This document shows, piece after piece, positions 46,289 to 64,000 of a stretch of 64,000 nt of DNA. The DNA lies in the NCBI GenBank assembly GCA_002162925.1, contig MABC01000053.1:1-64000 (forward strand), read 5' to 3'. Origin of the DNA: Thalassotalea sp. 42_200_T64 (lineage in GTDB: Bacteria; Pseudomonadota; Gammaproteobacteria; Enterobacterales; Alteromonadaceae). The notes beneath the pieces were generated by a model. It did not search any database and was not told where the DNA came from. It was given only the letters and a program-made list of their open reading frames with translations. The translations under genes were made by a program, and so were the position numbers. How positions within the stretch are numbered: position 1 is the first letter of the stretch; every line of letters starts with the position of its first letter.

Positions 46289-47563
46289 ATGAGCAAAGCT
46301 AGAATTAGGCAACTTATGAATCTTTTGTATCGTTTTTCCGTATTTCTAATGTTAACTATTTTGTCTTTATCGGCTTCTTCCGCAGAAGATATCAAGACTG
46401 GTGCCCAGCTATGGCGAAACAATTGTGCTTCCTGTCATGGTGCCGATGGTAGAGGTTCACCTAAAATAAAGCAGCAACTCAATGGCGAAATTATTGATTT
46501 TACTTCTTTAGCATTTGCTGAAACTATTGATCGAAAGCGAATGTTGTTAAGTGTTCGTGATGGGGTTAAAGATACAATAATGCCAAGCTTTCGCGATAGC
46601 TTAAACTATACCGAGATGATTGCCATTATCGATTATGCCCGGGAAAATTTCATTTTAGCGGTCGAAATGGGCGAAGATTATGAAATAGGTAAAAAAGTAT
46701 TTAAAGACAATTGTTCGGTATGTCATGGCGATCAAGGCCAAGGTGCGGTGTGGACTGCTGCTGGATTATTTCCAAAACCGGCTAATTTTACCGATCCAGT
46801 TAAAATTGCTGAATTGGATAAACAACGTATGTTGTTTTCGGTAACCAACGGTCGCCCTGAAACTGCCATGGTTTCCTGGGAAAACCGGTTAAGTAAAGAT
46901 GAAATCAGCGCGGTAGTTAAATATATTCGTGGTGCCATTATGAAAGTAAGCGATCGCGATACGGCCTATGGCGATGCTATGGGGGAAGCGCAAGATAAGA
47001 GCGATCCATTTTTAAGTGGTAAGGCTTTTGACGAAGACAGTCTGGCCACAACTAATGCAAAACAAGAAAGCACTAAGTCGGCTAAACCGGCAGAAAAAGC
47101 TAGCGATCCATTTCTGCAAAGTAGTGCTTATAATGTTAAAGAAGATCCAAACCTGGGTGAGTCGGATATTTATGCCGGTGATGCTCATGATCATCAGGCT
47201 CACATGGGGAAAAAGTTAAACCTAAACGATCCCCTGCCAAAAGAGTTGGTTGGTGAGTATTTTGCCGGTAAAGAGTTATACGAAAATACCTGTGCATCAT
47301 GTCATGGTGTTAAAGGCAATGGTAAAGGGCCAAGAGCATATTTCATTTTTCCTAAACCGAGAAACTTCACCCATAGCGCGGCCCGGGCAAGTTTTAGTCG
47401 TGCCCACATTTTTGAGCGAATTCGTACCGGCGTAGAGCGGACTGAAATGCCGGCTTGGGGTAAAGTATTAAACGAGCAACAAATGGCTAATGTGGCTGAG
47501 TATGTGTTTTCTACTTTCATTGTACCTAACGCAACTAAGCCTGCTGATGGTAAAGATAAATAG
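46289..47563 (+). CDS. Triple-domain class I cytochrome c (triheme)
   Basis: The start is ATG 46289 or, with a shorter signal peptide and AGG upstream, ATG 46316. The 424-residue exported protein has three class I cytochrome domains with CASCHG (about 46-51), CSVCHG (about 142-147) and CASCHG (about 330). Between the second and third lies a Lys/Asp/Ser-rich linker (about 235-300) with two copies of a SDPFL motif. Such three-haem class I proteins carry electrons in the periplasm. It is first in an operon with a second triheme gene, a thioredoxin-like gene, two kinases and the response regulator. FNR-like matches upstream are weak. Confidence 0.88.
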   Translation: MSKARIRQLMNLLYRFSVFLMLTILSLSASSAEDIKTGAQLWRNNCASCHGADGRGSPKIKQQLNGEIIDFTSLAFAETIDRKRMLLSVRDGVKDTIMPSFRDSLNYTEMIAIIDYARENFILAVEMGEDYEIGKKVFKDNCSVCHGDQGQGAVWTAAGLFPKPANFTDPVKIAELDKQRMLFSVTNGRPETAMVSWENRLSKDEISAVVKYIRGAIMKVSDRDTAYGDAMGEAQDKSDPFLSGKAFDEDSLATTNAKQESTKSAKPAEKASDPFLQSSAYNVKEDPNLGESDIYAGDAHDHQAHMGKKLNLNDPLPKELVGEYFAGKELYENTCASCHGVKGNGKGPRAYFIFPKPRNFTHSAARASFSRAHIFERIRTGVERTEMPAWGKVLNEQQMANVAEYVFSTFIVPNATKPADGKDK

Positions 47564-47572
47564 GGAAGAAAT

Positions 47573-48574
47573 GTGTTGCTAAGATTATCACTGTTAATGA
47601 GCTTTTTGTTTTTAAGCTCATTTTTCCAGGCAGCTCCAAAGGACCATAAATATCAAGAAAAGCAAGTAAGTAAGAATATTGAGGCAAAGCGGCACGAAAT
47701 TGGCCGCCAAATTTATAACTATCGTTGTTATTATTGCCATGGTTATTCTGGCGATGCCAAAACCTTAGCGGCGCGAAATATGCAACCAGCGCCGCGAGAT
47801 TTTAGTAATACCGCACTTCACAGTTTAACAAAAAAGCAAATGCTAAATGTGGTAACGGTTGGTAAAAACGGCACGGCGATGACCGGATTTACCAAATTTC
47901 TATCAACCGAAGAAATTGCCATCGTAGTCGATTTTATCCGCCATGAATTTATGGCTAAGCAATTAGAAAACACCCGTTATCATACTCCTGAAAATGGTTG
48001 GCCAGAGCACAAAAAATATAAGGCCGCATACCCGTTTGCTACCGGTGAAATCGCTTTAGATATTAACCAACAAAAGTTATCTGAGCAACAACGCCTCGGG
48101 TTGCAACTCTACTTAGAGTCGTGCATAACCTGTCATGATAATTCCTATGTGGAAGATAAAGGCGATATCTGGTCAACCCAGGCAATATCGTATCCAAGAA
48201 ATAATTTTTCCTTTAGCAATTTTGATGGTTTTACCGGAGCCAGTACTTATCAAAAGCACGATACTTTTGAAAAATTAACCAACGCAAATAAACAGCAACT
48301 ACTTGGCGAGCAGTTATTTAGAGACAACTGTGCGTTTTGCCATGCTATGGATGGCACAGGTTTGAACTGGATAGGCAGTTTTTTGGATGAAAAACCGCAA
48401 AACCTGCAAGACCCAGCATTTATGAGCAGGATTAATAAACCGGCGATAAAGCAGATGATCAAAAAAGGTAAGGTAAACACGTCGATGCCCGCTTGGGAGT
48501 CGGTGTTAACTGAGCGACAAATTGATGCCATCATCGCCTATATTGATAAAGCCTTTCATCGATTAAGTGACTAA
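47573..48574 (+). CDS. Triheme class I-type cytochrome c
   Basis: GTG 47573 follows AGGGAAG; an ATG two bases earlier is out of frame and stops at once. The 333 residues have a signal peptide (to FFQAAP) and three haem motifs: CYYCH (near 55), CITCH (about 185) and CAFCH (about 260). The central CITCH has a spacing unlike a standard class I fold, so the protein is a diverged relative of the preceding one. It is nine bases after the preceding gene and overlaps the thioredoxin-like gene's upstream start, so all are co-expressed. Confidence 0.85.
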   Translation: MLLRLSLLMSFLFLSSFFQAAPKDHKYQEKQVSKNIEAKRHEIGRQIYNYRCYYCHGYSGDAKTLAARNMQPAPRDFSNTALHSLTKKQMLNVVTVGKNGTAMTGFTKFLSTEEIAIVVDFIRHEFMAKQLENTRYHTPENGWPEHKKYKAAYPFATGEIALDINQQKLSEQQRLGLQLYLESCITCHDNSYVEDKGDIWSTQAISYPRNNFSFSNFDGFTGASTYQKHDTFEKLTNANKQQLLGEQLFRDNCAFCHAMDGTGLNWIGSFLDEKPQNLQDPAFMSRINKPAIKQMIKKGKVNTSMPAWESVLTERQIDAIIAYIDKAFHRLSD

Positions 48575-48581
48575 TTTCACC

Positions 48582-49109
48582 ATGAATATCTATCGTTTAT
48601 TTTGCCTTGTTATTTTTTTTCTAGGGGGGGTAGTTGCCTGCACGGAATCGCAAAGTGCGCAGGCAATGCAAGGTAAGCAATGGCCACAATTGGCAATGTC
48701 TGCACTCTATCCTACGGTTGAAGCTGATAAAGAAAATAAGCCTTGGCAATTAATTAATGTTTGGGCAACCTGGTGCGAACCTTGTCGAAAAGAAATGCCA
48801 ATGCTAGAGAACTTAGCCAGTGCATTAACGGCCGAAAATTTTTCTTTAATACTGCTTTCCATTGATACAGATCTAAATCTTGTGAAGGAATTTACGTTAA
48901 GGTACTACATAGATTCGTCGGTTTTTATTACCAGTCGAGATGAAGTTGAGCAACAACTCTCGGTATTATCATACCCGATGACGTTTCTAGTTAATCCTGA
49001 AGGTGAAATTGTAAAAGTTTACCAAGGGGTAAGAGAGTGGGATTCTTCATTAATGATCGCATCGATTAAAAATATCATCAATGAGCCTGTTAATACTAAT
49101 AGCCAATAA
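48582..49109 (+). CDS. TlpA-like thioredoxin lipoprotein
   Basis: ATG 48582 gives 175 residues with lipobox VVAC (C20). GTG 48567, overlapping the upstream stop, is the alternative. The fold shows the active site WATWCEPCRKEMPML (about 65-79) and the cis-Pro loop SYPMTFLVNPEG. TlpA/CcmG-like proteins reduce disulfides in the periplasm, often the CXXCH cysteines of apocytochromes before haem attachment. Its place in a cytochrome operon fits that role. A T8 run and a G7 run occur in the signal-peptide coding part (48613-48630), a slippery stretch. Confidence 0.83.
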   Translation: MNIYRLFCLVIFFLGGVVACTESQSAQAMQGKQWPQLAMSALYPTVEADKENKPWQLINVWATWCEPCRKEMPMLENLASALTAENFSLILLSIDTDLNLVKEFTLRYYIDSSVFITSRDEVEQQLSVLSYPMTFLVNPEGEIVKVYQGVREWDSSLMIASIKNIINEPVNTNSQ

Positions 49110-49124
49110 TAGTTAATAAACTCA

Positions 49125-50621
49125 ATGACCAATAACCAGCAGCCACAACACTTAATTTATCCGCACACCATTCGTGGCAAGGTGCTGTTATTTATTGCTG
49201 TCTTGTCAGTTTATGTTAGCTCATTGTTTTACTACAGCTTTGAGCAAAAAAATCAGTTAGCCGAAACCTTGCATGGGATAGAAAGTTTACAGTATGCCGA
49301 AAATATTTTACTGGAAGCTGATTTGGCGGTGTTTGACGCCATAACGCAACTCATTGTGTTGTTTGAGCCCGCCGCACGGCAACAAGTGTTGGAAGACGTT
49401 CATCAACAATTTAAAGGTTTGACCAGGCACTACGATAATATTTCCAAATTATATCCAGAGCGAGCACCATCATTTTATGCACTGCTAGGCAGTCTGGCGA
49501 AAGTGATCATGTCACCAAGTCCGGAAGATCTGAAAGAGGTTCGCGTTAACTTAGAAGTTCATAAGTCGCAACTTAACAGCCTGATAAAAGAAAACCAAAT
49601 TGAACGCCAACAGCTGATTAAAAATTATGACAATATTAGCAATGCCGCGGCGCAAAACCTGGTGATATTCGCGTTAAGCGGTTTAGTGGTGCTACTCATT
49701 ATCTCCAGTATTTTCTTTGCCAAGATGGGCCACGATATTAACCGGGTTTTAAGCCAAATTAAGTTAATTATTGCCAGAAAAACGACTGAACCTCTAGAGA
49801 ACCGGCGCTCAGATGAAATTGGCGTGCTCATTGCTGGCGTTAATCATATGTCACAAGCGCTGGATTATCGCGACCAACAGTTACACATCGAACGATTGCA
49901 CAAATCCTATCTAGACAGCATTGGCGCAATTGAACATTTAACGGCTGGCTTAGTACATGAAATTGGCAACCCAGTGGCGGCGATTAGCGGCATGATCAGT
50001 GAGATTGAATATCAGCAAGAAGCACTGCCCGAGACGGTCAAAACCTATATTGCCAGCATTAAAGATTATAACAATAAGCTGCAACTTATTAATAAAGACC
50101 TGGCGAATTTAGCCGCCCCCACCAGTTCTGAATATCAACTGCTCGATCTTAACGAGCTGATCAGTCAGAGCCAAAACTTATTACATTACGATGAGCGTTG
50201 GTATGGGGTAAAAATTAACTTTGTGCAGGCCCCTTTGCTGCCGGCGTTATATGGCAATAGTGGTCAAATTAAACAGTTATTAAATAATCTGTTAAATAAC
50301 TGTTTAGAAGCAAAAGTTAACGCCGAACATGAAATTAACATAGAAACTGAGTTTCATCACGATGAAATTGTATTAACCATTAAAGACAATGGCAGTGGCA
50401 TGGATAACGCGACTCTCGCACAAATATTTAATGCCTTTTTTACCACTAAAGATCCGCTTTTGCACAGTGGTATGGGGTTATTTAGTTGTTTAAATATTGT
50501 TGAAAGCCATGGCTCGCGGATCAATATTTGCTCACAACCCAAACAGGGCACCGAAGTTAAGGTTTATTTTTCTCAACAACAAAACAGTTCTAAAACGGGG
50601 GGAATAACCAATGAAGATTAA
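49125..50621 (+). CDS. Membrane sensor histidine kinase 1
   Basis: The 498-residue protein has TM1 (about 18-38), a periplasmic helical sensor (about 40-178) with no known domain, TM2 (about 179-201) and a HAMP region. The dimerisation helix carries the phosphorylated H278 in AGLVHEIGNPVAAISGM. The ATPase domain has the N box (LLNNLLNNCLEAKV), DNGSGMD and a G2-like HSGMGLFSCL. The His box is of the NtrB-like HEIxNP type, commonly paired with sigma-54 activators. It overlaps the second kinase gene by 11 bases. Confidence 0.9.
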   Translation: MTNNQQPQHLIYPHTIRGKVLLFIAVLSVYVSSLFYYSFEQKNQLAETLHGIESLQYAENILLEADLAVFDAITQLIVLFEPAARQQVLEDVHQQFKGLTRHYDNISKLYPERAPSFYALLGSLAKVIMSPSPEDLKEVRVNLEVHKSQLNSLIKENQIERQQLIKNYDNISNAAAQNLVIFALSGLVVLLIISSIFFAKMGHDINRVLSQIKLIIARKTTEPLENRRSDEIGVLIAGVNHMSQALDYRDQQLHIERLHKSYLDSIGAIEHLTAGLVHEIGNPVAAISGMISEIEYQQEALPETVKTYIASIKDYNNKLQLINKDLANLAAPTSSEYQLLDLNELISQSQNLLHYDERWYGVKINFVQAPLLPALYGNSGQIKQLLNNLLNNCLEAKVNAEHEINIETEFHHDEIVLTIKDNGSGMDNATLAQIFNAFFTTKDPLLHSGMGLFSCLNIVESHGSRINICSQPKQGTEVKVYFSQQQNSSKTGGITNED

Positions 50622-51867
50622 CAAATTACTATTTTTGACATGGTTATTTGGGGTTTTGCTATTTCCAATCCATGGTTTCGCGGCAGACGCTGGTGCCGCA
50701 GAGGAAGATTTTCGGCTATATTATTTGCTGTTGGTATCAATCATGCTGCTTGGCGCGTATTTAATTTTTTCCTCAAAGGCGATTAATAAACGTAGATATG
50801 AACGACTTAAATTCGCCAGTCAGCCAATATTCGTCACTAACTCGAATGGACAAATTCTTTTTGCCAATGATGAAGTGATAAAATTAACGGCACAACCGTT
50901 TAACTCTTTACAATCGGCGAGTATATTCGAATTAATCAATGGCTTGCCTAATTGTTTGCTCAATAACATTCAATGTAGAAATATTAAAAGTAATGAATTG
51001 TGCAGTTGTGAAAAATTGAATGAAGACGAGGCACAATTTAGCTTAATCACTAAACATGATGAAGAATTACCGGTAAATATTAGTGTGCTAAGGCAAAAAG
51101 GCGGTGTTTTTATTTATTATTTACAAGAGCTGTCATCAATTAGGCAATTGGAAAAACAGTTAGAGTTGCAAAATAAGGTGGCAACTTTGGGCGAGTTTTT
51201 AGCGGGTATTTTACACGAAGTCGGCAATCCTATGGCCGCAATTGAAGGTATTGCCAATAATCAAATTTGGCAAATAGAGAATCAGACAGAGCAATTGTCG
51301 TTGACTGAGTTAAAACAGCAACTACAAATTATTCAAACTCAGGCCAGCCGGGTCAATCAGGTTAAAAATGAATTCAGCCGGATCAGCGGTGATAGCCAAA
51401 ACGACAGTTTTGAATTGGTCGATATGGCTAATTTGTTAGAGCAATTAGTCGATTTAGCGAAATTTGATAAACGCAGTCATGGCATTAAATTTAACTTTGA
51501 AATTCAGCAACAACTGCCGGCGGTTAACACTCAGTTAAGCAAGGTCACGCAAATACTGTTAAATGTGTTATCCAATGCCATGGATGCTTTGCACGAGCAA
51601 ACAGACCCTTGTATTTGTTGCAGTGTATGCATAGACCAAGATTATTTAAAAATTAATATCACCGATAATGGCCCCGGCATTGACAGTGCGTTATTGGATA
51701 AGATTTTTGAACCGTTTTACACCACCAAAGCGAAAGGCACAGGTTTAGGCTTAATGATTTGCAAGCGGTTAAGCGATTCGATTTCGGCAAAAATTGAAAT
51801 ACATTCAAAAGTTGGCGACAACACTCAGGTTAATTTATATCTCCCACTAAACAATGGTGAACAATGA
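50611..51867 (+). CDS. PAS sensor histidine kinase 2 with cysteine clusters
   Basis: The 418 residues have a signal-like segment (to about 25), a transmembrane helix (about 36-55) and a PAS-like domain (about 65-170) containing C115, C122, C131 and C133. The kinase follows with H202 in LHEVGNPMAAIEGI, an N box LLNVLSNAMDALHEQ, DNGPGID and GTGLGLMIC. A second cysteine group CICCSVC (334-340) interrupts the ATPase domain. The cysteines could bind a metal or a cluster or sense redox state; this is an inference. It overlaps the response regulator gene by four bases. Confidence 0.88.
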   Translation: MKINKLLFLTWLFGVLLFPIHGFAADAGAAEEDFRLYYLLLVSIMLLGAYLIFSSKAINKRRYERLKFASQPIFVTNSNGQILFANDEVIKLTAQPFNSLQSASIFELINGLPNCLLNNIQCRNIKSNELCSCEKLNEDEAQFSLITKHDEELPVNISVLRQKGGVFIYYLQELSSIRQLEKQLELQNKVATLGEFLAGILHEVGNPMAAIEGIANNQIWQIENQTEQLSLTELKQQLQIIQTQASRVNQVKNEFSRISGDSQNDSFELVDMANLLEQLVDLAKFDKRSHGIKFNFEIQQQLPAVNTQLSKVTQILLNVLSNAMDALHEQTDPCICCSVCIDQDYLKINITDNGPGIDSALLDKIFEPFYTTKAKGTGLGLMICKRLSDSISAKIEIHSKVGDNTQVNLYLPLNNGEQ

Positions 51868-53204
51868 AAACGTTAAAAATATTGGTGGTGGATGACGAGC
51901 CTGCCATCAGACAAATTATGGCAAGTGTGATCGCCCGCGAAGGCCACGATGTTTCAGTTGCCGAAGATGGGACAAGCGCCTTAGAGCAACTCACTGCAAA
52001 TGAGTATGATGTGGTATTTAGCGACGTGCGCATGCCGGATTTTACCGGTATTGAACTGCTTAAAAGAGCCAAGGCGGCAAACGTAGAAGCGCAATTTATC
52101 ATTATGACCGCCTTTGCCTCGGTTAATACAGCCATAGAAGCGATGCGTAACGGTGCGTTTGATTATTTAACCAAGCCGCTAAGACCAGAAGATGTCACCC
52201 ATCGAATCAACCAGATAGCCGATTTTATTGGTCTGAAATCAGAAAATAAAGTGCTACGTGGTCTTGTTATGGGTATAGGTGACAGACAATGCGCGATGCC
52301 ATCAGAGTCGATGGCGAAAGTTGACCGGTTAATTCAAAAGGTGGCAAAAACCGACTCGACGGTATTAATTACCGGTGAAAGCGGCACCGGTAAAGGGGTA
52401 ACCGCAAAAACCATTCACCAAAACAGCTTACGCGCTACGGGCACCTTCATCCCGGTTAACTGTGGTGCCATACCTGAGCATTTGATGGAAAGTGAGTTAT
52501 TTGGCCATACCAAAGGTGCATTCACCGGCGCAACCAAAGCCAAAAAAGGCCTGTTTGAAGAAGCCGATGGCGGCACCATATTTTTAGATGAAATTGGTGA
52601 GCTACCTCTTCATTTGCAGGTGAAATTGCTGCATGTATTGGAAGAAAAACAGGTGCGTCCTGTCGGTAGCGAACGCTTTATTGATATTGATGCCCGTATC
52701 GTTTCCGCCACTAACTGTGACTTACAACAGATGGTGAAAGACAATAAATTCAGGGAAGATTTATATTTTCGATTAAATATTTTTAATATCGACTTACCTT
52801 CTTTAAAAGATCGTAAAGATGATATCAAAATACTGATCGATTTTTTTGTAAAGCGCGAAGGTAAAAAGCTGGGCTTAACCCAACATTTCGACATTGAAGC
52901 TGAAGCTTTAGAGTTACTAGAAAACTACCAATACCCGGGAAACATTCGTGAGCTTGAAAATATCATCGCCAGAGCATTAATCTTGGCCGATGATGACATT
53001 ATCAGAACTACGGATTTACCGAACCAGATGCTTGACCAAAGCAAACCGACAATCTCTGGTGATAAAACCCTGCGTGAGCAAGTACGCGATTTTGAAATGC
53101 AGATAATAAAACAGGCTATAGCCGATAGTAACGATGACAGGCGGGTAGCGGCAGAAAAACTCGGCTTGGGGCTCTCTAGCTTGTATCGCAAATTAGATGA
53201 GTAA
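51864..53204 (+). CDS. NtrC-family sigma-54 response regulator
   Basis: The 446 residues comprise a receiver domain with the acceptor D54 (VFSDVRMPD) and the T and K switch residues (MTAF, TKP). An AAA+ domain follows (about 145-370) with Walker A GESGTGKG, the sigma-54-contacting GAFTGA loop ([19 protein letters not shown]), Walker [12 protein letters not shown] and NIRELEN. A Fis-type helix-turn-helix ends the protein ([20 protein letters not shown]). It activates sigma-54 promoters after phosphorylation by the adjacent kinases. The perfect -24/-12 element at 57100-57115 is a likely target. Confidence 0.95.
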
Positions 53205-56713: not shown

Positions 56714-56821
56714 CCCATTTACATAAATTACAGCATCTACATCGGGAACTTGGCTCCCGATGTTATTTTAAAATAGCTGATTTTTTGCTTTATGCTTGAC
56801 ATCAAGATTAAACACTAAATA

Positions 56822-56890
56822 GTTCCCCGTTCCCCGTTCCCCGTTCCCCGTTCCCCGTTCCCCGTTCCCCGTTCCCCGTTCCCCGTTCCC
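56822..56890 (+). repeat. Heptanucleotide tandem array (GTTCCCC)n
   Basis: Nine perfect GTTCCCC units and a partial tenth, in the non-coding region after the propeller genes (56714-57247). The C-rich strand could form a G-rich complementary structure. It is 109 bases after the last propeller gene. Confidence 0.95.
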
Positions 56891-56912
56891 AATTTTCACA
56901 TTTAAGATTGCA

Positions 56913-56928
56913 TTCTCATTGTTGAGAA
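56913..56928. promoter_or_regulatory. Candidate activator site (UAS) for the sigma-54 promoter
   Basis: TTCTCA-TTGT-TGAGAA is a perfect 6-bp inverted repeat 187 bases upstream of the -24 element. A further half site, ATGAGAAT, lies at 57033-57040. This is the usual distance range for NtrC-type binding sites. Which regulator binds is inferred. Confidence 0.45.
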
Positions 56929-57099: not shown

Positions 57100-57115
57100 T
57101 GGCACGGCAGTTGCT
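57100..57115 (+). promoter_or_regulatory. Sigma-54 promoter (-24/-12)
   Basis: TGGCAC-GGCAG-TTGCT matches the consensus TGGCAC-N5-TTGCW exactly. The predicted start is near 57127. It reads toward the tetraheme cytochrome gene at 57248. Confidence 0.85.
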
Positions 57116-57191
57116 TTATACATAATAGATTAACAATTAAAGCGATTTAGGAATTTTCAAACCAATGATAATTCTTAGATGAAAAATCAAA

Positions 57192-57215
57192 CATCGAAGT
57201 TCATCAACTTCGATG
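57192..57215 (+). promoter_or_regulatory. Hairpin in the 5' leader of the tetraheme cytochrome
   Basis: CATCGAAGTT-CATC-AACTTCGATG is a perfect 10-bp stem in the leader between the sigma-54 start site and ATG 57248, 32 bases before the start codon. It may protect the mRNA or tune translation. Confidence 0.6.
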
Positions 57216-57247: not shown

Positions 57248-58099
57248 ATGAAATTAACAACAAAAGCAAGTGTTCTTGCAACAATTATCGCCGCTGGCGT
57301 GTTAACCATGGCTACGGCGAGTGCAAGTATCGTAAGTAGTAAGCACAACTTAGGTAGCAATGGTACCGGAGCTAACAATCTCGACAGTGTTACTGGGACA
57401 GGAGATGCAACAGAGGTTTGTGTGTTCTGTCATACTCCGCATGGCGCGAATACGGGGATATCAGCTCCATTATGGAACAAAACCGCCGGCACCGGCAGTT
57501 ATTCTACCTACAGTGATATGGCATCAACGACAATCGATGGTAGAATTGAAACGGTTGGTTCTGTATCTGTGGCGTGTTTGTCTTGTCATGATGGCTCGCA
57601 AGCGATGGACGTAATGAGTAACGAGTCTGGTTCAGGAGCAGATACCATTTCTGCCTTCGATTGGACAGGTTCAACAGGTACCACAGCAACAAATGGTAAA
57701 TTGGTCGGTTTTGCCGCGATTACCACCGATTCAGATGGTTTGAAAAATGATCACCCGGTAGGTATTCAATACGCAGGTGGTGGTTATACATCAACTGATA
57801 CCAGTGCAACATCTGGCGCCGCGATGGTCGATGGCGATTTCAATGGCGCATCTTATGCTAAGCCAAATGGCGTCGATGTTTGGTGGGTGAATACCACAGC
57901 TACTGATAGTACTGCAAACCGTGAAAAAACCGATATGATTTTATACACGCGTACGGGTTCTGGTACTGGTCTACAAGCAGGTATTCAGCCTTATGTAGAA
58001 TGTGCAACCTGTCATGATCCACATGAAGCAAGCAACAAGACGTTCTTACGTATTCCGAATACTGACAGTAAAGTTTGTTTGGCTTGTCACGATAAATAA
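57248..58099 (+). CDS. Tetraheme cytochrome c
   Basis: ATG 57248 has AGAGGAAG upstream and opens a clear signal peptide (MKLTTKASVLATIIAAGVLT, cleavage near SASA); an in-frame ATG at 57179 would lie upstream of the leader hairpin. The 283-residue product has four haem motifs: CVFCHTPHG (58), CLSCHDG (about 110), CATCHDPH (about 261) and CLACHDK at the C-terminus. The CXXCHxPHG style and extra histidines are typical of doubled-CXXCH/cytochrome c3-like proteins with bis-His haems. It is the only gene visibly under the sigma-54 promoter. A terminator follows. Confidence 0.92.
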   Translation: MKLTTKASVLATIIAAGVLTMATASASIVSSKHNLGSNGTGANNLDSVTGTGDATEVCVFCHTPHGANTGISAPLWNKTAGTGSYSTYSDMASTTIDGRIETVGSVSVACLSCHDGSQAMDVMSNESGSGADTISAFDWTGSTGTTATNGKLVGFAAITTDSDGLKNDHPVGIQYAGGGYTSTDTSATSGAAMVDGDFNGASYAKPNGVDVWWVNTTATDSTANREKTDMILYTRTGSGTGLQAGIQPYVECATCHDPHEASNKTFLRIPNTDSKVCLACHDK

Positions 58100-58117: not shown

Positions 58118-58153
58118 AAGCGTATGACTGTAAGAGTTATACGCTTTTTTTTT
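58118..58153 (+). terminator. Terminator after the tetraheme cytochrome
   Basis: AAGCGTAT, a 13-base loop, then ATACGCTTTTTTTTT, 19 bases after the stop codon. Confidence 0.85.
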
Positions 58154-58405: not shown

Positions 58406-59392
58406 ATGAAAAAGTGGATACTTATCGTTTGCGGATTAACCATTTTCCCGGTCATTGGTCAACAACAAGCTGAGAGTCAATCCGAGGAAATAACGGCCGT
58501 TTTTTCGCCTTTTGAACAAGAGTTTGCCCAGGTTAATGCGGAATTTTTATCGGTAGCATTATTTAAAGAATATTATGCCTATAAAACCAGAAACAAATTT
58601 TATCACGGTAAACCACCTGAAGGAGAGGCAGATGTTTTTGCCCGAGAGCAAAAAGATGAGTTAATTAATGCCGTATTGGCGGCGCAGCAGGCGAAAAACC
58701 AAAATCTATTTGCCAATGCCGAAGAAATAGAAAAAAAATTGTCAGCAATAGATAATCAATATGCGGCAAACGAACAATGGCAATTGGTTAAGCCAAAATT
58801 GTTACCGATGTACCATCGCATGCTGGAAATACAAGATCTGGCCGAGCAGTATGAACGCTTGATTAAGCAACAGGTGATATTATCGGAGGAAAAGGTAAAA
58901 GTATTCTTTAGTGAAAACAGAGACAAATTCACTCAGCCGCCTCAAAATCATGTCGCAATTATTTTATTGGCGGTAGAGCCAAGTGCTGGAAGCTTTGTTT
59001 GGCAAGCGGTACGCGAGCAAATTAATGATATTCACCAACAATTAGTCGACGGCAAAGACTTTGCCACATTAGCCGAGTTGTATTCTACCGATGTAACTGC
59101 TGACCAAGGCGGCAATATGGGGCTAGTTCATCAAGGGATGATTTCAACCGATGTCGAAAAAGAGCTGGAAACCATGCAGCCTGGAGAGTACACCAAGCCC
59201 ATGCTTTTACTCGATGGTCTGGCCATTTTTAAACTGGTAGAGCGCAAGCCAGAAACCGTTCATAGCTTTGAAGAGGTAAAAACTCGAGCCGGTCGCTTAG
59301 CAAAGCGAGCCGCAATAACTCAGGTTTGGCAAGATAAGTTGGCTGAGCTGCAACTAGCCGCCGTTATTGAGTTTAACGAAAATTTCCAATAA
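58406..59392 (+). CDS. PpiC-type peptidyl-prolyl isomerase, periplasmic
   Basis: The 328-residue protein has a signal peptide (cleavage near FPVIG/QQ), an N-terminal chaperone-like helical region and a parvulin domain (about 190-290) with HVAIILLAVEPSAGSFVWQA, ELYSTDVTADQGGNMGLVHQ and MQPGEYTKPMLLLDGLAIFK. Members fold secreted and outer-membrane proteins by turning X-Pro bonds. It is directly upstream of the barrel gene, so it may help the cytochromes or the barrel to mature. In Geobacter, parvulin genes sit near multihaem cytochrome loci. Confidence 0.87.
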   Translation: MKKWILIVCGLTIFPVIGQQQAESQSEEITAVFSPFEQEFAQVNAEFLSVALFKEYYAYKTRNKFYHGKPPEGEADVFAREQKDELINAVLAAQQAKNQNLFANAEEIEKKLSAIDNQYAANEQWQLVKPKLLPMYHRMLEIQDLAEQYERLIKQQVILSEEKVKVFFSENRDKFTQPPQNHVAIILLAVEPSAGSFVWQAVREQINDIHQQLVDGKDFATLAELYSTDVTADQGGNMGLVHQGMISTDVEKELETMQPGEYTKPMLLLDGLAIFKLVERKPETVHSFEEVKTRAGRLAKRAAITQVWQDKLAELQLAAVIEFNENFQ

Positions 59393-59434: not shown

Positions 59435-61249
59435 GTGCGCGATAGATTGGGCCTATTAACTTTGCTTGGCTTGGGGTTTGGCATTTTCTCTTTCTCTAGT
59501 TTAGTTGAGGCCAGTCCATGGCTTAATTTATCTCAAAGTAATAGCGATACTCGTGGTTTTGTCGGCTTGTCTCTTAGTGATAATGGCGCTATAAGAGGAA
59601 ATGAACAAGGCTCCGAGGAGGGAGTCAACACCTCATGGATTGGTGATATTATTAATGAAAACATTTGGCAGGGTTATATCGATAAACCTTGGATAGCGAC
59701 CGCTAAGGTGAGAACACAGTTAACCGCTAGCATTAATAGTTATGACATAAGTACGAATGATAACACTTCGATCCTGACTGCTTATGCGCAAAGTTCAATT
59801 AAGCTTTACCCCGATTCAACCTATCCAACAACATTTACCTTAGGGCAACGCATCGGTGAAGTGAGCAGCACTCACGCTTACCGTTACTATAAAACCGATT
59901 TTTCCGTAAACAACACTTATAAACCAGAGAAAGCGTCTTATTCAGCGTCTACCTATTATCGGGCAAATTTTGACACTGAGGATGCCGATAGCAGTGGTGG
60001 CGAAGAGCACGATCGTTTTAATCAACAATTTGATTTCAATTTTACCGATAACTTGCAAAGTAGCAACTACACAGTAATCGCCAGGTCAGAACGAAAAGAT
60101 CAAGAGAGTCGCTTTAATCAAAACAAGCGAGAGTTACTGGATGAAAATATGTCATTGCAGTACCAGCAGAATTGGTTTACCAGCGGCCAAGATTCAACCT
60201 ATTTGGCGGCCGATATAAGCAGTAACAAAAGCACAATTACTGAAGAAGACATTGAAGATATAAATCGTTTCGATCTGGCCCAAATAAATATATCTTCGTA
60301 TATAGCTTCTAAACAGTATGACAATTTAACCTATAATTTTAATGCCTTTGCCAATCGAACTGAGCAAGAAACTGACGTTCAAAGTAAAAGCAGGGTAAAT
60401 GATATTATCAATGTGTTTGCCGGCGCTAACTGGGATTATAATGATAATTGGCGATTTAGTGGCAGTTTAGATGGTAATTATTTAAATGATCAGCATACCC
60501 AAACTAATTTCTACTCGACTTTACTCTCGGCTAATTATGATGATAATAAAGATTTGTCAGAATCAATAAAATTAAACTGGTTTGTTGGCAATAGTGTCGG
60601 TATTGAGGCTGGAGGTATAAATGGTCAGAGCTATACACTCGCTTTAGGCAATGGCATTAGTAAAGAGTTAACCCCGCTTGATACATCATTGAGAATTAGT
60701 TTTGATCAAAGTTTAAACCATGTGGTTGACAGCGCTAAAGATGCTGAACCAGATGAGTGGAAAATAAATCATGATTTAAACTTTGGTTGGTCGGATTATC
60801 AAAATGGTGTCAATTCTTCTGCACAATTGTCGTTTTCGGATACTCGTCATTTAAGCGACGATCCTTACCAATTTCAAAGAGCCTATTTTACCGTTAATCG
60901 CGACGTATTACTCAGCGAAAGCGATAGTTGGGGCGGAGGCTTTGTTTTTGAATGGACCAATACCATTAATGATGATGGCGAAATAAGTAAAAGTAGTCGT
61001 GCCTGGGGCAGTTTGTTTTACCGCAATTCGGAACTCTGGCAGGTAACAAACCTACGCTTTACTTCTGAATTAGAGGTGCCATTTAATGACTTACTTCCCG
61101 AAGAGGACGTTAGAATTGATAACCAGATAGCAACCTGGCGAAACAGACTTGATTATCGAGTTGGCCTATTAACATTTGATCTTGACAGCACGTTAACCGA
61201 AGAAAATTATCATATTTCCATTAATGTGAGACGCAATTTTAATTTCTGA
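59435..61249 (+). CDS. Outer-membrane beta-barrel protein (predicted porin of the conduit)
   Basis: GTG 59435 gives 604 residues with a signal peptide (to VEASP). The rest is a long series of alternating amphipathic strands rich in Asn, Ser, Asp and aromatic residues, for example YSASTYYRANFDTEDAD, LSFSDTRHLSDD and WRNRLDYRVGLLTFDL. It ends in NVRRNFNF, with the C-terminal Phe required for barrel assembly by BamA. The size and strand richness fit 20-plus-strand barrels such as MtrB/PioB or the Geobacter conduit barrels, but no family can be named from sequence alone. It lies between the isomerase and triheme genes. Confidence 0.85.
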   Translation: MRDRLGLLTLLGLGFGIFSFSSLVEASPWLNLSQSNSDTRGFVGLSLSDNGAIRGNEQGSEEGVNTSWIGDIINENIWQGYIDKPWIATAKVRTQLTASINSYDISTNDNTSILTAYAQSSIKLYPDSTYPTTFTLGQRIGEVSSTHAYRYYKTDFSVNNTYKPEKASYSASTYYRANFDTEDADSSGGEEHDRFNQQFDFNFTDNLQSSNYTVIARSERKDQESRFNQNKRELLDENMSLQYQQNWFTSGQDSTYLAADISSNKSTITEEDIEDINRFDLAQINISSYIASKQYDNLTYNFNAFANRTEQETDVQSKSRVNDIINVFAGANWDYNDNWRFSGSLDGNYLNDQHTQTNFYSTLLSANYDDNKDLSESIKLNWFVGNSVGIEAGGINGQSYTLALGNGISKELTPLDTSLRISFDQSLNHVVDSAKDAEPDEWKINHDLNFGWSDYQNGVNSSAQLSFSDTRHLSDDPYQFQRAYFTVNRDVLLSESDSWGGGFVFEWTNTINDDGEISKSSRAWGSLFYRNSELWQVTNLRFTSELEVPFNDLLPEEDVRIDNQIATWRNRLDYRVGLLTFDLDSTLTEENYHISINVRRNFNF

Positions 61250-61420: not shown

Positions 61421-61849
61421 GTGAAAATAAAAAGTAGCCTGAAGTTAAAGTTTTCCGCTTTAGCTTTGTTTGTAGGTTTATTCTTTAGCTTTAACCTATT
61501 TACCGCATCACCTGCACATGCCGAATACGGTGATGTGGTCATTAACAACTTTTCTGAAGAAGCTGGCATGCGGCCGGTGGTATTTCCTCACTGGTTTCAT
61601 CGCGCCCGGTTTCGCTGCAAGGTATGTCATGCCGATTTAGGCTTTAAATTTGAAGCCGGTGGCAATGAAATTGATATGTTAAAAATTATTGATGGTGAAT
61701 ATTGTGGCGCTTGTCACAATGGCGAAATCGCCTGGGCAGTAGAAAACTGCAATTTATGCCACTCGGGCACACCGGATACGCCAACGCAAGTGCATGGCTC
61801 TACGGTGCAGCAACTCGTTTCAAATGATAAAAAACCAGAGCAGAAGTAG
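61421..61849 (+). CDS. Triheme c7-type cytochrome c
   Basis: GTG 61421 follows AAGGA at eight bases; an ATG upstream is out of frame. The 142-residue exported protein has the module VVFPHWFHRARFRCKVCHAD, CGACHN and CNLCHSG, with hemes at C66, C95 and C110. This is the nanowire/c7-type triheme arrangement, a PHxxH-like segment before the first haem and three closely spaced CXXCH. It has no other domain, making it the minimal version of the module fused in the other two cytochromes. Likely periplasmic or conduit cytochrome. Confidence 0.9.
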   Translation: MKIKSSLKLKFSALALFVGLFFSFNLFTASPAHAEYGDVVINNFSEEAGMRPVVFPHWFHRARFRCKVCHADLGFKFEAGGNEIDMLKIIDGEYCGACHNGEIAWAVENCNLCHSGTPDTPTQVHGSTVQQLVSNDKKPEQK

Positions 61850-61858
61850 GGAATAAAG

Positions 61859-62785
61859 ATGAAATCTATTAAATTATTAACAGCCTTAATTGTTGCTCTA
61901 TTCACCTACAATGCTAGTGCTGCCGATGTGGCTAATGGCAAAAAAGTAGCCGATATTTCCTGTGTTGCCTGCCATAAAGCAGGCGTGATGGGGGCACCCA
62001 AAATTGGCGATAAAGCCGACTGGCAAAAACGGATGGAAAAAGGCCTTGTTGGTGTTGAAAAGAATGCCTTAAATGGTTTGAACTCTATGCCGGCGAAAGG
62101 TGGTAATCCAACTTTAAGCGATAATGACATTAAAGATGCGATTGCTTATTTCCTCGATTCGGCCGGAGTAAGAGCCGCAGCAAATGCAAGCAAAGCAAAG
62201 GCTAAACCGAAAGCCAAGCCGGCGCCAACACCAGTGGTAAAAGCGGTTGTTAAAACAGTCAAAAAACCGAAAAAATCAAAAGTGATGAACTTTAACCGCT
62301 TGATGAAGCCACCTTCAGAGTGGAATCCACCACCGTTTGAAGATGGTATTCATGACCCCGATGGTGAAGGCGCTTATATGTTACAGCCACCTAGAGAATT
62401 GTTTACCAACTTGGAAAAATCCAGCTCTGGTAACCGAGTAGATTGGGTGAAAACCTTGAATAATGGCTTAATTGCGCCACGTTGGGACAAGGCCGATGAT
62501 ACAAAACAGCCATTTGTGATGGATTTAAACATTGTACGGGAAGTAAAAGGTTCGATGCCGAATGTGGTTTATCCACATAAACAGCATACCCAATGGCTAG
62601 ATTGTTCAAACTGTCACCCCGATATCTTTATCCCGAAAAAAGGTGCCAACCAAATTAGTATGGCCGCTATTTTAATGGGCGAAAAATGTGGTGTCTGCCA
62701 CGGTAAAGTGGCGTTCCCGGTGTCTGATTGTCGTAAATGTCATTCTCAAAACAAGAAAAAGCCATTAGTGGCGAGTAGAAAATAA
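61859..62785 (+). CDS. Cytochrome c: class I domain fused to a triheme module
   Basis: The 308-residue product has a signal peptide (to ASA/AD), an N-terminal class I cytochrome domain with CVACHK (35-40) and GLNSMPAKGG as axial-Met region, an Ala/Lys/Pro-rich linker (about 105-140), then a C-terminal triheme module with CSNCH, CGVCH and CRKCH. The last 170 residues resemble the C-terminus of the DUF1566 fusion at 43768, including EDGIHDPDGEG and VVYPHKQHTQWLDCSNCH. Four haems in total. It overlaps the next gene by one base and follows the small triheme gene by nine bases. Confidence 0.9.
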   Translation: MKSIKLLTALIVALFTYNASAADVANGKKVADISCVACHKAGVMGAPKIGDKADWQKRMEKGLVGVEKNALNGLNSMPAKGGNPTLSDNDIKDAIAYFLDSAGVRAAANASKAKAKPKAKPAPTPVVKAVVKTVKKPKKSKVMNFNRLMKPPSEWNPPPFEDGIHDPDGEGAYMLQPPRELFTNLEKSSSGNRVDWVKTLNNGLIAPRWDKADDTKQPFVMDLNIVREVKGSMPNVVYPHKQHTQWLDCSNCHPDIFIPKKGANQISMAAILMGEKCGVCHGKVAFPVSDCRKCHSQNKKKPLVASRK

Positions 62786-63679: not shown

Positions 63680-64000
63680 ATGAAGTTCTTTTACATCATA
63701 ACTGTGCTAGTTATCACCCTACTTTTTACGGGTACAACCACTGCCTCTGGTGCGGTAGTCAACCCTGAGTTGCAGCAAAAACTTGCGGCCTTTCCTCTGC
63801 CCGATGATATTGCCGGTAAACCCTCGAGATTTGGTTATCTGCGCAAGCTGTTAGGCATCTCTTCAGGGGCGAAGCAAGTGATGAAAAGTGCCAATGTAGA
63901 GGCACACGATGCCTACATTAAGGCTCGTAAAATTTATATTCAAGCGGCAACAGAAAGCGATAACGACAAAGTCAATAAACTACTCGATCAAGCGGTGAAA
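63680..64000 (+). CDS. Exported protein, unknown (partial, runs off the window)
   Basis: ATG 63680 begins a 107-residue visible stretch with a signal peptide (MKFFYIITVLVITLLFTGTT, cleavage near TASGA). A helical region follows with LAAFPLPDDIAGKPSRFGYL and SGAKQVMKSANVEAHDAYIK. It starts eleven bases after the helical protein, so it belongs to the same operon. The rest lies outside the window and no function can be given. Confidence 0.75.
   Translation, partial: MKFFYIITVLVITLLFTGTTTASGAVVNPELQQKLAAFPLPDDIAGKPSRFGYLRKLLGISSGAKQVMKSANVEAHDAYIKARKIYIQAATESDNDKVNKLLDQAVK

Follow-up and report, generated by a model that had tools for sequence, protein, structure and literature searches.

Results

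Gene organization around the cytochrome locus

The window, i.e., the whole 64,000-nucleotide stretch of DNA that was analyzed, contains a cluster of genes encoding c-type cytochromes, histidine kinases and a response regulator (RR), in which the following features were located.

48567–49109 (+), thioredoxin-like protein (Trx), first gene of the Trx–kinase–kinase–RR cassette
49125–50621 (+), membrane histidine kinase (HK1)
50611–51867 (+), PAS-type histidine kinase (HK2)
51864–53204 (+), NtrC-type RR, proposed activator
56739–56763 (+), terminator-like hairpin 3' of the upstream propeller gene, before the promoter
56893–56908 (unstranded), weaker second site with two mismatches, 20 bp upstream of the next, centre to centre
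56913–56928 (unstranded), probable enhancer site 1, TTCTCA-N4-TGAGAA (TTCTCATTGTTGAGAA), centre about 180 bp 5' of the promoter
57100–57115 (+), -24/-12 sigma-54 promoter TGGCACGGCAGTTGCT, exact consensus, kept 5' of homologues
57248–58099 (+), OmcE-like tetraheme cytochrome, by homology to OmcE (start given by the ORF caller, 57179)
58118–58146 (+), terminator-like hairpin with T tail, 3' of the cytochrome gene
58406–59392 (+), PPIC-type peptidyl-prolyl isomerase, which adjoins the cytochrome again in relatives
59435–61249 (+), 604-aa protein, no Pfam match, outer-membrane-barrel-like by eye
61421–61849 (+), triheme c7-type cytochrome with NCBIfam nanowire_3heme domain
61859–62785 (+), cytochrome with cbb3-III and c7 domains

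The RR consists of receiver, sigma-54 activator (AAA+) and Fis-type helix-turn-helix (HTH) domains with GAFTGA in its sequence, and lies 3.9 kb upstream of the -24/-12 element, confirming the NtrC-type regulator that a first-pass annotation of this DNA had placed about 4 kb upstream. It is one of 13 strong sigma-54 activator-domain matches in the genome, which has four weak ones besides, and its best NCBIfam models (AtoC, NtrC and PEP-CTERM RR) all scored far under their cut-offs (AtoC, 433.5 versus 714). Alignment of 19 of the 21 RR orthologues described below (L127 and L133 were left out) showed a recognition helix ending in LSSLYRKL or LSTLYRKL ([S/T]LYRKL) in all 19; this end differed in all five other regulators aligned.

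Gene order between contig positions 46289 and 82712, a stretch that extends past the window end at 64000, was largely common to G001, which alone among 14 same-genus genomes searched contains the cytochrome; the gene was absent from the rest of a 59-genome search, apart from G001 and the window's own genome. A recurring core, comprising the cytochrome, the PPIC isomerase, c7-type cytochromes, proteins with sub-threshold YfdX matches, an NHL propeller and an 11-heme cytochrome, was found in many of 79 related loci, including those of Magnetococcales, Sedimenticola and Thiodiazotropha, and the order Trx–kinase–RR–Sel1–propellers was found again in other genomes of the class. A plasmid search returned no finding. 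The cluster also encodes a GGDEF protein with PAS and periplasmic-type sensor domains (L118, 9473–11827, minus strand), which suggests c-di-GMP signaling.

Relationship of the cytochrome to the OmcE nanowire subunit

A cytochrome start at 57248, chosen by eye, was considered likelier than the mechanical ORF start at 57179 on the basis of a ribosome-site-like AGAGGAAG, a signal-peptide-like N terminus and alignment with homologues; the resulting protein has 283 aa and four CXXCH motifs. Its sequence matched the OmcE nanowire subunit (PDB 7TFS; E = 3.5e-19), and a profile of 48 homologues matched 7TFS over profile positions 5–254 of 254 (E = 3.4e-44) and also 9YUQ, a "putative multiheme cytochrome c" (E = 3.5e-43). 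The eight histidines are the only ones in the cytochrome, are invariant in 48 of 48 rows and align with the heme-ligand histidines of OmcE. These alignments identify the cytochrome as homologous to the OmcE nanowire subunit, an identity added here to the first-pass annotation, which had not named it. The window protein and OmcE of Geobacter sulfurreducens are both tetraheme, with the same eight histidines and a near full-length profile match, whereas the former is longer (283 versus 232 aa) and its residues ~182–240 are without counterpart in the alignment. An AlphaFold2 model built with 48 sequences was poor (mean pLDDT, 52.8) and cannot show polymer contacts. In the OmcE filament, as stated in an excerpt of PMC9473688, heme is ligated by a histidine of the neighboring subunit.

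Terminator-like hairpins follow the cytochrome gene and separate the upstream gene from the promoter, so that a single-gene transcript is likely and the cytochrome gene is probably transcribed alone. In each of the 14 relatives inspected, a hairpin with a folding energy of -17.6 to -31.5 kcal/mol, scored without shuffle control, lay at most 160 bases past the stop codon, and the T run after it was not constant among them. Between the promoter and the start codon, the 5' leader contains a hairpin (57192–57215) made of a perfect 10-bp stem and a 4-base loop, for which a regulatory-RNA reading had been considered; no counterpart of this stem was seen by eye in G001.

A sigma-54 promoter element upstream of the cytochrome gene

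The element at 57100–57115 is an exact match to TGGCAC-N5-TTGCW, with GG at 57101–57102 and GC at 57113–57114 (GG-N10-GC), and the 64 kb held no second exact match. The first-pass description of a perfect -24/-12 element, the sole such promoter in the window, preceding the tetraheme cytochrome gene, therefore held in each of these respects. Transcription would start (+1), by convention, at about 57126. However, a single exact match is weak evidence alone, since at least one was also present in 12 of 100 shuffled windows (mean, 0.12 matches), and the case for the promoter accordingly rests on comparison with relatives. The whole assembly (3.6 Mb, 87% complete), which encodes RpoN once, contains 11 exact sites versus 1 for a backwards-read control pattern, and 17 versus 6 with the looser TGGCAY pattern. 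Three of the 10 other exact sites (L002, L005 and L006) fall within long ORFs, and some of the 11 are thus possibly no promoters. A weak sigma-70-like match (10/12) overlaps the sigma-54 element, and the interval from motif to promoter has IHF-like sites that are weak, with two mismatches. The TGGCACGGCAGTTGCT site agrees at 14 of 17 bases with the RpoN consensus for G. sulfurreducens printed in the excerpted part of PMC2725144. Elsewhere in the genome, the exact sites L008 and L009 (contig C74) lie directly 5' of ORFs that resemble, by eye, NAD(P)H nitrite reductase and a nitrate transporter.

Co-occurrence of the promoter with the response regulator

For 76 of the 79 loci, we scored the best -24/-12 match in the 300 bp preceding the homologous gene; the upstream DNA of the other three was too short. 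Scores of at least 17 were reached by 30 matches on the coding strand versus 3 on the other strand, and scores of at least 16 by 35 versus 9 (76 loci). Among the 22 closest loci (L029–L050, of which L047 and L048 apparently represent one genome), 20 reached 16.5, L036 and L037 being below, and in 20 of the 22 the element was placed 60–200 bp upstream; distant cytochrome homologues were mostly without the promoter. The promoter of G001 is TGGCACAGTGGTTGCT; upstream DNA has diverged between the window and G001, yet the element and the repeat were kept.

The RR was searched for in 28 genomes, namely the 27 behind 28 loci from L029–L069 (without that of L043) and G001. An orthologue, defined as a full-length match with at least 50% identity, was found in 20 of them, or 21 genomes with the window's own, and all 21 had a promoter scoring at least 16.5 (L033 and L039 at exactly 16.5). 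Only one of five clear RR-negative genomes had the promoter: G066, G067, G079 and G085 (L036, L037, L051 and L069) were without it, whereas G077 (L049) has promoter and motif with no RR orthologue found in the genome. The resulting table (21/0 versus 1/4) gives a Fisher p of 3e-4 with ancestry ignored, and would be weakened by taking as RR-negative the three promoter-bearing genomes that it excludes, namely G078 (with an RR fragment at the edge of a contig) and G083 and G084 (RR match of 45%).

A fresh sample of 369 genomes of the class contained the cytochrome (E at most 1e-30) in 39 and the RR (E at most 1e-105, with the best candidates, up to four per genome, scored) in 8. Both were present in G000, G146, G238 and G449, the last of which, judged by its identical RR coordinates, appears to be the source of L042, leaving two new RR-positive genomes; both of their loci had strong promoters (18.7 and 19.7). 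None of 35 RR-negative genomes reached 16.5 within 300 bp (90 bp only for L159), and one RR-negative locus, L173, had a match scoring 17.2 at 307 bp but no motif. This comparison (2/0 versus 0/35) gives a Fisher p of 0.0015, again with ancestry ignored. In G172, G184, G295 and G350, the RR was present and the cytochrome match was weak (39%), partial or none; no motif–promoter pair was found at the partial cytochrome locus of G184 or on the contigs that carry the RR in G350, G295 and G172. The sigma-54 promoter, nearby RR and repeat that the first-pass annotation had linked thus occur together and are mostly absent together in related loci. Contig C178 of G449 (L171 and L189) carries two tandem OmcE-like genes with a top-scoring sigma-54 element upstream of each.

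A conserved inverted-repeat motif upstream of the promoter

The inverted repeat at 56913–56928, previously suggested to be a regulatory site, belongs to a conserved motif, TTCYYR-N4-YRRGAA, that is tied to the presence of the RR. Its counterpart in G001 is ATCTCAATAATGAGAA, located 159 bp from the promoter (179 in the window), and G001 also has a comparable site at the spacing of 56893–56908. With at most one mismatch, the motif was present in 22 of 23 RR-positive loci versus 0 of 28 RR-negative loci, a count that was mostly not blind since the motif had been framed on most of the loci later counted; L171, being a copy of L042, was excluded, as were L159 and L174 for their short flanks. Of the two loci added after the framing, L157 has the motif with one mismatch (shuffle chance, 0.065) and L176 with none. 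Palindromes with permuted arms occurred at a mean of 1.6 of the 23 loci and a maximum of 19 (395 permutations, some near-equal to the motif), and only one (L049) of six further promoter-bearing loci outside both sets had the motif. Sites with at most two mismatches were often paired, with 31–33 or 20–24 bp between centres; these spacings, roughly three or two turns of the helix, are those that an enhancer would be expected to show. The motif is therefore a probable binding site of the RR, predicted from this pattern of conservation.

The strict palindrome, found at eight places with at most one mismatch and at one exactly, had been considered as a unique repeat; this description was dropped when the broader motif gave a second unit. 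Directly 5' of the repeat, at 56822–56889, lies a tandem array of the heptamer GTTCCCC, whose units resemble the half-site TTCCC. This array was rejected as a part of the circuit because three further contigs of the genome carry it as well.

Further motif–promoter units

The first-pass annotation had suggested scanning the genome for the repeat near other sigma-54 promoters, and a search with the broader motif yielded a second motif–promoter unit at C33:77712–77727 (minus strand), which belongs to the same cluster but falls past the end of the window. The 83 kb of the window's contig contain two units; in 60 runs with resampled sequence, the average was 0.2 units and the highest count 2. Of the genome's 17 strong sigma-54 sites, those at 57100–57115 and C33:77712–77727 were the only ones with a mismatch-free motif; L006, a site inside an ORF, has two motifs with one mismatch each. 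The second unit precedes a 79-aa ORF without Pfam match (C33:77392–77631, minus strand; L118, 13392–13631), which tblastn against the fetched loci detected only in the window's genome and G001; the G001 counterpart (55% identity over 73 aa) has a weaker unit.

No motif–promoter unit was found before the RR operon in the 83 kb of the window's contig, and self-regulation of the RR is thus not indicated here, although in G238 (L203) a unit precedes the Trx–kinase–kinase–RR genes. The "closed" circuit of the first-pass annotation is accordingly retained for the linkage of promoter, repeat and RR, and not for a loop back to the regulator in this genome. Units also precede a five-heme protein in L042 and a c7 cytochrome in L050, and some motif–promoter pairs inside genes and in GC-rich loci look like chance.

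Discussion

Proposed circuit and alternative explanations

From the sequences and their conserved co-occurrence, we consider it likely that 57100–57115 is a working sigma-54 promoter of the OmcE-type nanowire cytochrome gene, activated by the RR (51864–53204) via the upstream sites. In this model, one or both adjacent kinases would respond to a presumed signal and phosphorylate the RR, which would bind the TTCYYR-N4-YRRGAA sites around 56893–56928, reach across ~180 bp of AT-rich DNA to the promoter and, through its GAFTGA AAA+ domain, open the sigma-54 polymerase at 57100; transcription would then depend on RpoN, and the product might assemble into filaments.

That the element is a chance match and not a promoter, as its occurrence in 12 of 100 shuffled windows and the position of L002, L005 and L006 within long ORFs might be taken to mean, is scarcely credible in view of its conserved position 5' of homologues across many hosts. 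The co-occurrence could also reflect shared ancestry alone, if RR, motif and promoter had been inherited jointly by a few lineages with no functional tie between them. On a quick tree built from 66 cytochromes, the three promoter/RR states required 10 changes versus 24.1 in shuffles, so that these states are clustered on the tree, and the independent contrasts numbered one on well-supported branches and eight on the best tree. Nevertheless, the element and repeat were retained in the diverged upstream DNA of the window and G001, and short motifs lasting over Magnetococcales, Gallionellaceae and gammaproteobacterial families need selection, which makes ancestry alone a highly improbable explanation. 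The RR–promoter association is strong in these comparisons but possibly not phylogenetically independent, and shared ancestry explains part of it.

If the promoter is real, another enhancer-binding protein of the genome might activate it, with the RR acting elsewhere; 12 further strong activator-domain matches are available, and L049 has promoter and motif with no RR orthologue found. This is unlikely given that promoter and motif track the presence of the RR, and that perfect motif–promoter units among the 17 strong sites are confined to the window's cluster. A less remote alternative accepts the circuit and takes the cytochrome as a soluble or surface-bound OmcE relative instead of a filament subunit. 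The extra length of the protein, including the stretch at ~182–240 unmatched in OmcE, fits this reading, and the poor AlphaFold model is silent on polymer contacts, whereas the profile match to 7TFS spans almost the whole length and the only eight histidines, invariant in 48 sequences, align with those of OmcE; we regard a non-filament role as possible but doubtful.

Relation to known systems and wider regulon

The proposed circuit resembles those of NtrC, AtoC and PrsR in its receiver–AAA+–HTH activator, paired upstream sites and -24/-12 promoter, and differs from them in target gene and motif. Such circuits are classical, so that any novelty would lie in the target and the defined site and not in the mechanism. 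The sequences suggest a classical enhancer-dependent switch that is linked to an OmcE-like cytochrome and has been conserved together with it in distant bacteria.

In G. sulfurreducens, a sigma-54-type RR and kinase, GSU2506 and GSU2507, adjoin omcS (GSU2504) by locus number, according to excerpts of PMC10599522 and PMC7962754, which name no target site or promoter for the pair. As there, a sigma-54-type regulator and kinase lie near a nanowire-type cytochrome gene here, a likeness drawn by annotation only from those excerpts; OmcS is a different, hexaheme protein. The open-access literature searched, partly in excerpt, did not describe the present RR, motif or promoter in connection with OmcE-type genes, and a prior description is possible. 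The PCC3 clusters of iron oxidizers, also present in Gallionellaceae, combine a porin with multiheme cytochromes (median, 34 and 21 hemes) and a conserved inner membrane protein (excerpt of PMC5566968). The present locus is likewise a proteobacterial cluster with a putative porin and multiheme cytochromes; we rejected PCC3 membership, as the largest cytochrome in the 42-kb stretch has 11 hemes versus the medians of 34 and 21 in that excerpt.

On balance, we favor the view that a dedicated RR–enhancer–promoter module controls OmcE-type genes and has accompanied them in Magnetococcales, Gallionellaceae, Sedimenticolaceae and further lineages of proteobacteria, with a regulon extending to the 79-aa protein in the window's genus, the kinase–RR genes in G238 and extra cytochromes in other hosts. 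If so, it would represent a portable "nanowire on" switch, and its enhancer motif would offer a route to co-regulated genes and to new nanowire genes; regulator, probable DNA site and promoter are named precisely enough for bench tests. The Trx–kinase–RR cassette also occurs without a strong OmcE-like match at L199, L200 and L201 (G350, G295 and G172), and may thus have other targets. A strong motif–promoter unit at L040 (~2661, minus strand) precedes an ORF that is PilZ-like by eye.
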